Source: Cryobacterium sp. Y11
GTDB lineage: Bacteria; Actinomycetota; Actinomycetes; Actinomycetales; Microbacteriaceae
Length of the DNA: 64,000 nt
Assembly (NCBI RefSeq): GCF_002929535.1
Contig: NZ_PJJO01000058.1
Location: 1 to 64,000 of the forward strand
Reading direction: 5' to 3'
Shown here in pieces: positions 639-63,476 of this stretch; within the stretch, counting starts at the first letter, position 1; each line of letters starts with the position of its first letter. The notes beneath the pieces were generated by a model that was not told the origin of the DNA, searched no databases, and saw nothing but the letters and a program-made list of their open reading frames with translations. The position numbers and the translations under genes were made by a program.

Positions 639-1001
639 ATGCACATTGGCGAACTCGCCGAGAAAACAGGGCTGTCGCTGCGAACGATTCGGCACTACGA
701 CGAGGTTGGCCGGCTGAAGGCATCCGCTCGTACCGACGGTGGTTTTCGGCTCTACTCACCCGACGACTTCACCCGGCTGATGCTCATTCGCCGCATGAAA
801 CCGCTCGGCTTCACCCTCGACGAGATGACAGCCCTGCTCACGGTCATCGACACCCTGCAAAGCGGCGAAGCGGATGCTGAGAGCCCAGAGACGAAGCGGC
901 AACTGGATGCCTTCATCACCGAAACCGTTGCGCGCCGCCAGAAGCTCGAGGAACACCTCGGCATGGCCGACGAGTTCCTCGCCCTGCTCCGCGCGCAGTA
1001 G
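639..1001 (+). CDS. MerR-family transcriptional regulator
   Basis: DNA-binding regulator of 120 residues. It opens with the MerR winged helix-turn-helix (MHIGELAEKTGLSLRTIRHY, then DEVGRLKASARTDGGFRLYS), followed by a dimerisation helix rich in charged residues (RRQKLEEHLGMADEFLALL). No C-terminal effector domain or metal-binding cysteines are present. An upstream frame extends to 561, but homology begins at the ATG at 639, which I use. The gene is divergent from the SulP transporter, separated by about 130 bases, so control of that gene is the obvious inference. The coding sequence carries two copies of the CGGATGC-type motif (near 720 and 871). Confidence 0.85.
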   Translation: MHIGELAEKTGLSLRTIRHYDEVGRLKASARTDGGFRLYSPDDFTRLMLIRRMKPLGFTLDEMTALLTVIDTLQSGEADAESPETKRQLDAFITETVARRQKLEEHLGMADEFLALLRAQ

Positions 1002-1115
1002 CACTCTGATTCACCGATAAAATAGAGATCACCTGCACGAGGAAGTGGTGGCGCAATCATCTGGAACCGGTCCCGGCGTCGTGCTGACGCTCACGCGCAC
1101 CTCGGTGAACCCGAC

Positions 1116-1685
1116 GTGAACGCTGCGCTGCCCGACCTCGAACGCACGGTTGACGAGGGGCTGCTCATCGCGGTGTCTGCCGTGCGCATGGCCGTGAAGA
1201 ACGACATTATCGTCGGCGCGCTGCGGGAGCACGACGACTATGACCCGGGGCGGTACGCCGACAACGCCCGAAAAGAGCTGCACTATTTGGCCCGCCAGAA
1301 TGAAGAGTATGCGCAGCGGGTCAGCCGCATGACCAAGGACCTCGCGTCGATGAAATGGCGCCTGGGCCTGACCGACGACCAGCGACACGACCTCAAGCAA
1401 TTCGCCTTGCGACTACGGGTCCACGAACGCTTGAGTGTTGCCCTCGACGCCGTGGCCGATGACGACGATCAGGTGGCCCGCATCGTGGCGAGCGCTCAAC
1501 GGTCGGCCAGCGAAGAGGTCAGTTCGGCCGTCTCATCGAAGCTGATCGAGTTGGCCGTCGATCAGCGCGAATCAGACTATGCCGAGCATCGCGGTGAGCG
1601 CATGGAAGCATTTGTGCTGATCAACCTGGCCATTCTGAAGGCCAAGCACGATGCAGATACCGGTGAAGAACTCAACGAATACTGA
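1116..1685 (+). CDS. conserved hypothetical protein, coiled-coil rich, start uncertain
   Basis: Mostly helical, charged, soluble protein with no membrane segment and no recognised catalytic motif; it resembles an uncharacterised Microbacteriaceae protein I recall only loosely. The first canonical start in frame is GTG at 1116, giving 189 residues. The frame stays open upstream to a stop at 1023 and encodes plausible protein (WNRSRRRADAHAHLGEPDV). A purine-rich stretch at 1038-1045 (CGAGGAAG) lies about 10-13 bases ahead of two ATC codons at 1056 and 1059, so translation may start at a non-canonical ATC. Alternatively an original start has been lost. The gene converges on the DUF1294 gene with a one-base gap. 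Confidence 0.65.
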   Translation: MNAALPDLERTVDEGLLIAVSAVRMAVKNDIIVGALREHDDYDPGRYADNARKELHYLARQNEEYAQRVSRMTKDLASMKWRLGLTDDQRHDLKQFALRLRVHERLSVALDAVADDDDQVARIVASAQRSASEEVSSAVSSKLIELAVDQRESDYAEHRGERMEAFVLINLAILKAKHDADTGEELNEY

Positions 1686-1686
1686 C

Positions 1687-2058
1687 CTATCGACGTGCCT
1701 CGAGCAGCGCTGAGCTCAACGCGATGAACAGAAGCACATTGAGCACAACGGTGAGCCAGAAGGCGCGACGAAAGCTTGTTTTCTTTGTTTTGTGCCGAAA
1801 TACCTGCTGGGCCACGATGGCACCAGGCCAGCCGCCGACAAAACCCCACAAAAGCAGCGTTCGTTCCGGCACCCGTCGTTGCCTGGTGCCGGACCGACGT
1901 TTATCCACCAGATAGAGCGTGAAACAGATCAGGCTCGCGACCAGGTACAGCCCGGCTACCCAGACAGGGAGTGTCCAATACCAACTGACGGCCAGGTAGA
2001 TCAGCGCGAAACCGACGATCGCAGGGTAACTGCCCCGGCGGGAGCTGGCGATGACCAT
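1687..2058 (-). CDS. DUF1294 family small membrane protein
   Basis: 123-residue integral membrane protein. Three to four hydrophobic helices are visible: residues about 13-30, 32-50, 68-85 and 103-118. The DUF1294 core is clear: a YLVDKRRSGTRQRRVPE segment, then LLLWGFVGGWPGAIVAQQ and the basic segment RHKTKKTSFRRAFW. The function of the family is unknown; some relatives are fused to cold-shock domains. The ATG at 2058 is the only reasonable start. Confidence 0.85.
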   Translation of the reverse strand: MVIASSRRGSYPAIVGFALIYLAVSWYWTLPVWVAGLYLVASLICFTLYLVDKRRSGTRQRRVPERTLLLWGFVGGWPGAIVAQQVFRHKTKKTSFRRAFWLTVVLNVLLFIALSSALLEARR

Positions 2059-2176
2059 GGACTCATGCTACGGCGACCAGCCCGGCAGAAACTGTTGCCG
2101 CCCGTGTCGGCGCTCGCCGGTCGCCGAAACTGTGTGGCGCACCACGGGGTTCCCCCGTTTGTGGCGTGCTGGAGTG

Positions 2177-60885: not shown

Positions 60886-60980
60886 AGAACCAGAATCCCA
60901 CCCGCGCGCACCAGCCACCACCGCCAGTGGTCGTATTTTCGCATCCACCGGTCGACGGATGCCGTTTCCTCCGCCGAGCC

Positions 60981-61025
60981 GTGAGTTTGAGCCATTTTTC
61001 GCGAAAAACGGTGTCAAATTCACAC
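60981..61025. repeat. imperfect 45-base palindrome upstream of the exporter genes
   Basis: Outer arms GTGAGTTTGA and TCAAATTCAC (one GU pair) enclose an inner perfect palindrome TTTTTCGCGAAAAA. It lies about 100 bases before the exporter ATPase start, so an operator role is possible as well as terminator debris. Confidence 0.65.
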
Positions 61026-61079
61026 CTCGAGAACGCGAGTTCACGGTTCGATGGCCAGAACTCACACTTCGGCGACGAG

Positions 61080-61109
61080 GGGGGTTCGCGAAGACCTCGC
61101 GAGGCCCCC
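61080..61109 (-). terminator. hairpin after the UvrA-like gene
   Basis: GGGGG and CCCCC arms enclose two TCGCGA hexamers that also pair; the 5-base loop is AGACC. It lies 10 bases beyond the UvrA-like stop. On the minus strand the upstream side has TTTT rather than the downstream side, so termination is only probable. Confidence 0.45.
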
Positions 61110-61118
61110 GAAAAGTCG

Positions 61119-63476
61119 TTACGCCCCGACGTAGGCCGCGAGGTGCTCGCCGGTGAGGGTAGATCGGCCCGCGACGAGGTCGGCGGGGGTGCCCTCGAAC
61201 ACGATCCGGCCGCCGTCGTGGCCAGCGCCAGGGCCGAGGTCGATGATCCAGTCGGCGTGCGCCATGACCGCCTGGTGGTGTTCGATGACAATGACCGACT
61301 TGCCGGAGTCAACTAACCGGTCGAGCAGTCCGAGCAGGTTCGCAACGTCGGCGAGGTGCAGGCCGGCGGTCGGCTCGTCCAAAACGTAGACGTCACCCTT
61401 TTCGGCCATGTGGGTGGCGAGTTTGAGCCGTTGGCGCTCGCCGCCGGACAGCGTCGGCAGCGGCTGGCCGAGGCTGAGATAGCCGAGGCCGACGTCAGCG
61501 AGACGAGAGAGGATGGCGTGCGCGGCCGGCGTGCGCGCCTCGCCACCACCGAAAAACTCCGCTGCCTCGGCCACCGACATCGCGAGTACCTCGCTGATGT
61601 CGCGGCCGCCGAAGTGATAGTCCAAAACGAATGCCTGAAACCGCTTGCCCTCGCAGACCTCGCACACCGTCGCGACGCCTGCCATTATTCCCAGGTCGGT
61701 GTAGATGACCCCGGCGCCATTGCAGTTGGGGCAGGCGCCGTCGGAGTTGGAGCTGAATAGTGCTGGCTTCACGTCGTTGGCCTTCGCGAAGGCCTTGCGA
61801 ATCGGTTCAAGCATCCCCGTGTAGGTGGCCGGGTTGCTGCGCCGGGAGCCCTTGATCGCGCCCTGGTCGATGGAGACGACCCCGCTACGGCCGACAACCG
61901 AGCCGGAGACCAGCGAGGTCTTACCCGACCCGGCCACGCCGGTCAGTACCGTCAGTACGCCCAGCGGAATATCGACATCGACGTTCTGCAGGTTGTGCGT
62001 GCTCGCGCCCCGCACAGCCAGCACGCCCGAGCGCGTTCGAACGGATGCCTTCACGGCGGCCCGGTCGTCCAGGTGACGCCCCGTCAGAGTGCCGCTGGCC
62101 CGCAGCCCGTCGAGGGAGCCCTCGAAGACCACCTCGCCGCCCTCGGTGCCGGCGCCCGGGCCAAGGTCAACGACGTGGTCGGCAATGGCAATCATCTCCG
62201 GTTTGTGCTCGACCACGAGCACGGTGTTTCCCTTATCGCGCAGCTGGCGAAGCAGGGTGTTCATCCGCGCAATGTCGTGGGGGTGCAGCCCAATCGTCGG
62301 CTCGTCGAAGACGTAGGTGACGTCGGTGAGCGACGAGCCGAGGTGGCGGATCATCTTGGTGCGCTGCGATTCGCCGCCCGAGAGGGTGCCGGAGGCGCGA
62401 TCGAGCGAGAGGTAGCCCAGGCCGATTTGAACGAAGGAATTCAGAAGGTCCTGCAACGCTCCGAGCAGCGGCGCCACCGACGGTTCGGCCAGGCCGCGAA
62501 CCCAGTCGGCGAGGTCGCTGATCTGCATGGCGCAGGCATCCGCTATATTAATGCCATTAATTTTCGACGATCGAGCGCCCGCATTGAGGCGGGTGCCCTC
62601 GCAGTCGGGGCAGGCGGAGAAGGTGACGGCCCGTTCCACGAAAGCGCGGATGTGCGGCTGCAGCGAGTCGATGTCTTTAGACAGCATCGACTTCTGAATC
62701 TTGGGAATCAGCCCTTCATAGGTGAGGTTGATGCCGTCGACCTTGATCTTGGTCGGTTCCTTGTGCAGCAGGTCATGGAGCTCCTTCTTCGTGAAGTCGC
62801 TGATCGGCTTGTTGGCGTCGAAGAAGCCGCAACCGTTGAAGATGCGGCCAAACCAGCCGTCCATGCTGTAACCGGGGATGGTGAGCGCGCCATCGTTGAG
62901 GGATTTACTGTCGTCGTAGAGCGCGGTCAGGTCGATGTCGGTGACGGAGCCGCGGCCCTCGCAGCGGGGGCACATTCCGCCGGTGATGCTGAAGCTGCGT
63001 CGCTCCTTGACGGCCTGGGCGCCGCGCTGAATGGAGACGGCGCCCGCTCCGCTGATCGAGGCGACATTGAACGAATAGGCCTGGGGTGAGCCGATGTACG
63101 GCTGACCGAGCCGACTGAAGAGGATGCGCAGCAGCGCGTTGGCATCGGTGGCAGTGCCGACGGTGGACCGGGCATTGGCGCCCATCCGCTCCTGGTCGAC
63201 GATGATTGCCGTCGTCAATCCTTCGAGTACATCGACGTCTGGCCGGGCTTGGGTTGGCATAAAACCCTGCACGAAGGTGCTGTAGGTCTCGTTGATCATG
63301 CGCTGCGATTCAGCGGCGATCGTGCCGAACACGAGCGAACTCTTGCCGGAGCCGGACACGCCCGTGAACACGGTCAGCCGACGCTTGGGAATGTCGACAC
63401 TGATGTTCTTGAGATTGTTCTCTCGCGCGCCCTGAACCCGAATCAGATCGTGGCTATCGGCATCGTGCGCGCTCAA
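61119..63476 (-). CDS. UvrA-like ABC-class ATPase (UvrA2/DrrC type)
   Basis: 785 residues with two ABC ATPase modules. First: Walker [15 protein letters not shown], signature [16 protein letters not shown], Walker [14 protein letters not shown]. Second: [42 protein letters not shown]. Zinc-finger cysteines: [25 protein letters not shown] and CEVCEGKR. It is about 160 residues shorter than housekeeping UvrA because the UvrB-binding insertion in the first module is missing. Such paralogues (including DrrC) are linked to resistance to DNA-binding drugs. Start overlaps the aminotransferase stop by 4 bases. Confidence 0.9.

Follow-up and report, generated by a model that had tools for sequence, protein, structure and literature searches.

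The window analysed here is the whole of a 64-kb stretch of DNA from Cryobacterium sp. Y11 (contig NZ_PJJO01000058.1, positions 1 to 64,000), an organism with a genome size of 4,028,303 bases in 61 contigs. Scattered over its genes and the gaps between them is a short word, ARCGGATGC, in which R stands for two 9-mers, AGCGGATGC and AACGGATGC, and which the preliminary description had compared with a DNA uptake or recombination signal. Exact matching finds the word 54 times in the window, 28 times on the plus and 26 times on the minus strand, with 35 copies of AGCGGATGC and 19 of AACGGATGC. Below, G denotes a genome, g a genus (g1 being Cryobacterium), f a family, L a sequence stretch and C a contig. 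The copies in the window are as follows:

720..728, minus strand, word copy
869..877, plus strand, word copy
9398..9406, plus strand, word copy
9639..9647, minus strand, word copy
10611..10619, plus strand, word copy
10675..10683, plus strand, word copy
12868..12876, plus strand, word copy
12985..12993, plus strand, word copy
13054..13062, minus strand, word copy
14067..14075, plus strand, word copy
15847..15855, plus strand, word copy
16359..16367, minus strand, word copy
20740..20748, minus strand, word copy
21524..21532, plus strand, word copy
21629..21637, plus strand, word copy
23684..23692, plus strand, word copy
25077..25085, plus strand, word copy
25621..25629, minus strand, word copy
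26214..26222, plus strand, word copy
28632..28640, minus strand, word copy
29517..29525, plus strand, word copy
29947..29955, minus strand, word copy
30932..30940, minus strand, word copy
33094..33102, minus strand, word copy
33295..33303, minus strand, word copy
33923..33931, plus strand, word copy, left arm of the inverted pair 33923-33941
33933..33941, minus strand, word copy, right arm of the inverted pair 33923-33941
36327..36335, minus strand, word copy
36645..36653, plus strand, word copy
38685..38693, minus strand, word copy
39847..39855, plus strand, word copy
41375..41383, plus strand, word copy
41401..41409, minus strand, word copy
42374..42382, plus strand, word copy
43250..43258, minus strand, word copy
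44236..44244, minus strand, word copy
44933..44941, plus strand, word copy
45359..45367, plus strand, word copy
46944..46952, minus strand, word copy
48203..48211, minus strand, word copy
48351..48359, plus strand, word copy
50601..50609, minus strand, word copy
52561..52569, minus strand, word copy
53406..53414, plus strand, word copy
53451..53459, plus strand, word copy
53479..53487, minus strand, word copy
55359..55367, plus strand, word copy
55411..55419, minus strand, word copy
56529..56537, minus strand, word copy
58033..58041, plus strand, word copy
59941..59949, plus strand, word copy
60212..60220, minus strand, word copy
62040..62048, plus strand, word copy
62536..62544, minus strand, word copy

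The over-representation of this word is real and genome-wide. For the core CGGATGC the preliminary description had given about 77 occurrences in the window (40 versus 37); the exact number is 80 (43 plus, 37 minus), and its base-composition expectation of about 14 was correct (14.0). Its figure of about 54 copies of ARCGGATGC against little more than one expected is borne out by the exact count of 54 against about 1.25 (0.8 and 0.45 for the two 9-mers). As a control for both ARCGGATGC and CGGATGC we used throughout the same word reversed. Counting over the whole genome, as had been proposed at the time, shows the excess on that scale also, with 2,052 copies of ARCGGATGC (1,026 per strand), or one per 2.0 kb over 4.03 Mb, against 109 of the reversed word (62 and 47), and with 335 copies observed in 564 kb where a third-order Markov model expects 13.8. 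In a maximum-order Markov model of the window the 9-mers are not among the top words, as is usual where 8-mer and 7-mer subwords carry the excess, and that test is uninformative for nested words.

Over 464 kb of the genome each of AGCGGATGC and AACGGATGC reaches 32 times its composition expectation, and a change of one letter within the centre of the word, GGATG, lowers the count to between 0 and 2.8 times expectation. The end positions are more tolerant, the largest variants being GACGGATGC at 9.6 times and AGCGGATGT at 7.1 times, with most one-letter variants at 0 to 3 times. The word is non-palindromic, and in the same 464 kb CGC is weakly preferred downstream of it.

In order to separate the word from its coding context we used gene predictions from our own simple codon model. 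The predicted genes of the window contain 41 copies (19 sense, 22 antisense) versus 1.84 +/- 1.29 after synonymous codon shuffling within each gene, a procedure that does not preserve codon pairs (100 shuffles, maximum 6). These copies occupy five of the six orientation and phase classes, and the other 13 of the 54 are intergenic, in a window where the intergenic share of bases is 14.5%. In 62.7 kb of intergenic DNA taken alone the word is found 56 times where 1.2 copies are expected, and the reversed word once, and simple arithmetic puts the word at about 1.6-fold greater density between genes than inside them. GCA makes up 31% of alanine codons where these touch the word and 9.8% elsewhere. 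The earlier statements that the word lies about equally in both orientations, in several codon phases and also between genes, that it imposes GCA codons and that the pressure is on the DNA word rather than the protein are all upheld by these figures. An artefact of codon or dipeptide usage might be read from the fact that two classes (Ala-Asp-Ala or Thr-Asp-Ala, and Ala-Ser-Ala/Val) contain 31 of the 41 genic copies. The synonymous shuffle and the intergenic counts reject it, however, and true codon-context-like words such as CGAGCAG show one dominant phase and few intergenic copies; we give this explanation next to no probability. There is good support for selection or drive acting on ARCGGATGC as a DNA word.

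The strands are balanced, with 175 versus 181 copies over 28 stretches (chi-square 15.6; smallest single-stretch p 0.078), and orientation is also balanced in six other genomes with words of their own (five stretches each), making seven genomes in all. The absence of a polarity like that of Chi or of the FtsK-orienting polar sequences (KOPS) had been noted from the window, and since there is no strand skew either function is unlikely and such polarity was rejected. Gaps between copies are near random (coefficient of variation 1.13 in 480 kb of contiguous sequence) with one exception of 17.8 kb; within the window the longest word-free gap, 869-9398, spans a ROK gene and a sugar-type ATP-binding cassette (ABC) transporter operon. 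Intergenic density is 0.51 per kb in divergent gaps (10 sites) versus 1.15 per kb in tandem gaps (48 sites). This difference, the greater density between genes, the near-random spread in both orientations and the strong core GGATG would all suit a site without strand polarity that is bound by some abundant protein of the chromosome, such as a nucleoid organiser or a repair or recombination factor. Against this, no such protein was identified, the several words found in one family (described below) would require a house-keeping protein to change repeatedly, and Chi or KOPS function is unlikely for the reason given; we consider a site of this kind unlikely.

The conservation of individual copies was compared in the region around comEC (up to 40 kb, at 82-83% identity), taking as expectation the conservation of other 9-mers of similar GC; the relatives share history and the comparisons are not independent of one another. 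In six word-rich relatives the copies perfectly conserved number 9/18, 11/19, 8/19, 6/17, 10/18 and 5/22 aligned sites, with matching expectations of 4.6, 4.5, 5.0, 4.3, 4.2 and 5.1. Conservation is above expectation in five of the six, in G422 only slightly. Identity to these relatives is 80-91% inside the word, 75-77% in its flanks and 82-83% over the region, and with flanks below the regional identity the copies lie in weakly constrained DNA and yet are held themselves. From one further set of 20 stretches, L178, L179 and L181 to L184 were left out.

The longest word-free gap in 480 kb measures 17.8 kb at 59.6% GC, with a chance of about 0.015 over all 270 gaps. The word-free low-GC island of about 17 kb, from L016:14430 to L017:11449, contains a GmrSD-type restriction gene and a gene for a 1,054-residue protein without a Pfam match. 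A second gap of at least 10.9 kb (57.3% GC) at a stretch edge, with glycosyltransferase-like genes named by eye, is not significant alone. Conserved copies together with absence from one accessory island would fit uptake sequences. They are harder to reconcile with an origin of the word, in the absence of selection, from mutation or repair biased by sequence context. Such a bias would work in and between genes and in both orientations, and MutSL is missing from many actinobacteria; it would nevertheless need a nine-base context with a steep fall for one-letter changes, it does not account for copies conserved beyond their flanks in word-rich relatives, and it leaves the differences between species of one genus and the word-free island unexplained. 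We regard it as very unlikely.

A HemW encoded in the com region matches one of Cryobacterium sp. Y82 at 94%, and the family Microbacteriaceae named in the preliminary description is right. ARCGGATGC exceeds its reversed control in all 57 Cryobacterium genomes examined, with 353 to 2,198 copies and a lowest ratio of about 2.1 (G395, 384 versus 184). Flank profiles show that the A at position -2 of CGGATGC is missing in three ARCGGATGC-poor genomes of the genus (G433, G410 and G411); the CGGATGC core is common to the genus and the AR extension belongs to its word-rich species. Among 199 genomes of the family Microbacteriaceae the 9-mer is also high in g73 (about 1,600 copies), g9, g3, g30, g58 and others. 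The core CGGATGC is at least three times as frequent as its reverse in 54 of 85 genera and at least five times in 30 of 85, a tally that takes the first listed genome of each genus only; it is about equal to its reverse in g48, somewhat lower in g11 and g36, and at 0.3 of it in g52. In an order-wide sample of 198 genomes, the 184 that represent 19 other families had ARCGGATGC at less than twice the control by eye, the highest being G234 with 75 versus 40.

A de novo search with a third-order Markov model and synonymous shuffles, covering about 100 kb each of 15 other genomes, shows that several genera have words of their own. In the 17 genomes examined there are ten word forms, with GGAT common to all except AGGAGGCGC. 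Strings longer than 10 letters are composites of overlapping enriched 8- to 10-mers, and counts of palindromic words are given per site:

own genome (Cryobacterium): ARCGGATGC
G434 (Cryobacterium): AGCGGATGC, 14 versus 0.7 shuffled
g73: GAGCGGATGCG(G), also written GAGCGGATGCGG
g3: AACGGATGCC
g26: GACGGATGCCG
g79: CGGATGCCGCG
g9 and g70: CGGATGCC(G)
g58: two words, CGGATGCC (80 sites per 100 kb) and CGGATCCG (31 sites)
g35: CGGATCCG, 66 sites per 100 kb, in genes 5 times the shuffled expectation
g5: GCAGGATC, 54 in genes versus 9.4 shuffled
g15: ATCCGGATC, 22 versus 2.2 shuffled
g36: AGGAGGCGC, 32 versus 9.3 shuffled
g49: GGATGCCG, weak, 53 versus 22

The words of g5, g15, g36 and g35 deviate from the CGGATGC core, a few genera carrying CGGATCC, GCAGGATC, ATCCGGATC or AGGAGGCGC in its place. 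Copies of these dialect words are found in either orientation and in several codon phases, whereas codon-context words of the CGAGCAG kind favour one phase. In about 100 kb each, the search found no comparable multi-phase word in g17 and g51, and 100 kb of G051 (g52) held no comparable word. The enriched words ATCCGGAT (L220-L224, G096, g15) and CGGATCCG (L225-L229, G034, g35) are palindromic, a form nearer the highly iterated palindromes (HIPs) of cyanobacteria. The string AGGAGGCGC(G), with copies in either orientation and in several phases, was seen in L060-L064 (G110, g36) and in L088 and L093 (Frigoribacterium), from genomes that show no CGGATGC excess; its nature is ambiguous because it contains the Shine-Dalgarno-like AGGAGG. 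Pooling orthologous named loci for a word search confounds the result with the sequence that the genes have in common, and the words from such a search were used only for this Frigoribacterium observation.

A main rival explanation is a word of the HIP1 kind, in which an orphan DNA methyltransferase marks all or part of the word and repair or regulation tied to methylation creates or keeps the copies. HIP1 and the alternate HIPs of cyanobacteria look much like the words described here: one gives way to another among relatives, and there is a tie to orphan methyltransferases (PMC4390886). In our genome an orphan-looking methyltransferase gene lies at L230:937-1851 on the minus strand of contig C55, with RsrI and CcrM as nearest solved relatives. 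This beta-class N6-adenine enzyme was matched strongly in 34 of 36 panel genomes (26 of 26 word-bearing and 8 of 10 CGGATGC-poor ones), and both genomes lacking it (G051 and G121, g52) are depleted in CGGATGC, with 159 and 164 copies against 522 and 513 reversed; the GGAT shared by nearly all word forms would also suit a methylated site. However, 19 aligned copies from Microbacteriaceae hardly vary along most of the enzyme, a stretch that presumably includes the target-recognition part, despite differing words. The genera concerned include CGGATGC types, CGGATCCG (g35), ATCCGGATC (g15) and AGGAGGCGC (g36) types and others with no strong core excess (g11, g14 and g46), and because the enzyme is near-invariant across genera with different words or none it does not follow the word. 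It is also found at 59-75% identity in 14 genomes of f6 and f20, in which ARCGGATGC is by eye at most 1.6 times its control; of the 119 genomes covered, those from families other than f6 and f20 gave weak matches or none among those listed. Most of the words are not palindromic, and a Dam-like enzyme (PF02086), present in just 5 of 36 panel genomes, was rejected as a candidate. A methylation-linked origin is in our judgement unlikely.

The com and tad pilus genes that the preliminary description had suggested looking for are present. The genome encodes ComEA (SLBB and HHH domains), ComEC and a Tad locus, the last named by eye on the strength of its gene order and sequence. It also has two type IV pilus operons (clusters A and B) on contig C59, in L051 and L053, about 26 kb apart. 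Each operon contains PilB, PilT, PilC, a major pilin, minor pilins and PilMNO-like genes, several of these names being given by eye, and a PilD-like peptidase gene occurs only in cluster A. Between the two operons lie a gene for a large FtsK-like ATPase and a protein-kinase-like gene, both named by eye. Four minor pilins were scanned, and two have weak PilV/ComGE matches below curated cut-offs. A long-match PilB (about 1,215 nt, the cluster A type) was found in seven of the eight word-richest and none of seven word-poor Cryobacterium panel genomes, and in the three genomes examined, G405, G193 and G078, PilB is nearest to that of cluster A (90, 90 and 81%). Shared ancestry could explain this association of cluster A with word-richness. 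The wider ATPase family was matched in 47 of 47 genomes. In G434 (L065-L066) the genes for major pilin, minor pilins and PilMNO-like proteins occur as two sets, one after the other, within a single type IV pilus operon.

The best supported reading is that a self-recognition word working like a DNA uptake sequence is spread across the family, with ARCGGATGC as its dialect in Cryobacterium, because the word's form, density, balance, core dialects, two-word genome, conservation and com and pilus genes match the DNA uptake sequences (DUS) of the Neisseriaceae or uptake sequences as generally known; we hold it tentatively, at a little less than an even chance. On this reading a DNA-binding part of the competence apparatus (a tip protein of the type IV or Tad pilus, or ComEA) would prefer word-bearing DNA, uptake and recombination would favour DNA of close kin, and this bias would let the word build up over the core genome. 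Three links of this reading are inferred: the assignment of the reader to the uptake apparatus, the existence of a bias in uptake, and the maintenance of the word by such a bias rather than by some other selection. Minor pilins encoded in cluster A, the second of the two type IV pilus operons, would be the candidates to consider first as readers of the AR extension in Cryobacterium.

A number of observations weigh against this reading. In G141 (1,357 copies), the remaining one of the six word-rich relatives, conservation was not above expectation, and in three word-poor species 0/11, 0/14 and 0/11 copies were conserved (0/36 in all, with 1.6 to 1.9 expected in each), the word being less conserved there than its own flanks. 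No ComP-like receptor was identified among the four minor pilins scanned, and in G078 the A-like cluster has a PilT that resembles the one of cluster B more closely. G434 (1,833 copies) and G404 (1,476) are without the long-match PilB, and as the sole full-length PilB cluster of G434 is of type B, cluster A was rejected as a requirement for the word in Cryobacterium. ComEC is present in 195 of 199 family genomes, word-free ones included, and thus was rejected as a discriminator of word-bearing genomes. A full-length PilB match is missing from word-rich G072 and G135 (g73), G126 (g58), G385 (g79), G291 (g85) and G155 (g12) and a full-length PilB is present in word-poor G004 and G087 (g5), G035 and G110 (g36) and G033 (g34), so type IV pili were rejected as the common reader across the family; Tad-like genes were read by eye in three of the word-rich genomes without PilB (G135, G385 and G126). 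Inverted word pairs number nine sites genome-wide against about 2 expected by arithmetic, and eight of them have no T-run behind the hairpin. No Cryobacterium uptake data were found in the literature, the genus name being absent among the matches listed. The earlier suggestion of an uptake sequence is therefore supported in part: dialects, conservation in word-rich relatives, island absence and com and pilus genes speak for it, but ComEC and PilB do not follow the word and the orphan methyltransferase leaves a HIP1-like alternative. A role of the word as a terminator hairpin appears unlikely, given only nine inverted pairs in the genome and one (L009) with TTTTT within 12 bases.

A bolder proposal, which we think possible although rather doubtful, is that uptake words are in use throughout the family Microbacteriaceae, in dialects that are diverging (types CGGATGC, CGGATCC, GCAGGATC, ATCCGGATC and AGGAGGCGC). 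Such a system would act as a barrier to gene flow between genera and would have been invented independently of the Neisseriaceae and Pasteurellaceae, the second type IV pilus operon having brought the stricter ARCGGATGC to Cryobacterium. If the uptake reading is true, uptake words would have a further, independent instance, with ten word forms from 17 genomes to be mapped on 85 sampled genera, and kin preference versus a by-product of receptor bias as their origin would become directly testable. If the HIP1-like explanation is true instead, a second phylum would be added to an unexplained phenomenon.

The window also carries, at 40584-40611 on the minus strand, a dispersed GC-rich repeat resembling repetitive extragenic palindromic (REP) elements, which recurs in L003, L010, L011, L013, L015 and L018. 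It consists of TGCGCGGGAG and TGCGCCRCTG blocks, often with several direct or inverted copies in about 150 bases, and is frequent between genes; TGCGCGGGA of this repeat has 47 matches in 28 stretches scanned, some of them single.

Among known systems, the Chi sequence of B. subtilis, AGCGG, is likewise a frequent short word and is the start of AGCGGATGC, but ARCGGATGC, unlike Chi and KOPS, is without strand skew. The uptake signal sequence (USS) of the Pasteurellaceae has a 9-bp core and about one copy per 1-2 kb. The Cryobacterium word is like it in the length of the core, in density and in a weak one-sided extra preference (here the downstream CGC), and the two differ in having unrelated words and phyla (compare PMC1626085). 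The HIPs of cyanobacteria (Elhai 2015, PMC4390886) are likewise very frequent across a clade, give way to other words in certain members and go with an orphan methyltransferase; they are, however, palindromic, which here only CGGATCCG (g35, g58) and ATCCGGAT (g15) are, and the conserved methyltransferase here does not follow the word. Micrococcus luteus, which shares the order Micrococcales with Cryobacterium as well as com genes and Tad pili, is naturally transformed by means of Tad/Flp pili with ComEA-ComEC (PMC4322843, PMC8467076 and PMC6370729); in the main texts of PMC4322843 and PMC8467076 neither 'uptake sequence' nor 'uptake signal' occurs.

DNA uptake that prefers a word is known in the Pasteurellaceae and Neisseriaceae (PMC1939737), and no report of such a word in Actinobacteria was found among the open-licence papers listed. 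From the DUS of the Neisseriaceae the system described here differs in its Gram-positive Actinomycetota host and its GC-rich word around GGAT. In the Neisseriaceae uptake bias has been demonstrated and the receptor ComP is known (PMC6370729), whereas here the evidence is genomic and no receptor has been identified. The likenesses to the DUS dialects (Frye et al. 2013, PMC3630211) are a short word in thousands of copies, a conserved core with flanks that vary between genera, two dialects in one genome (there Simonsiella muelleri, here g58) and some relatives without an obvious word. With DUS and USS alike the word shares its form as a non-palindromic 9-mer far above expectation, its balanced orientation, its presence in coding and intergenic DNA, its dialects and the competence genes of its host.

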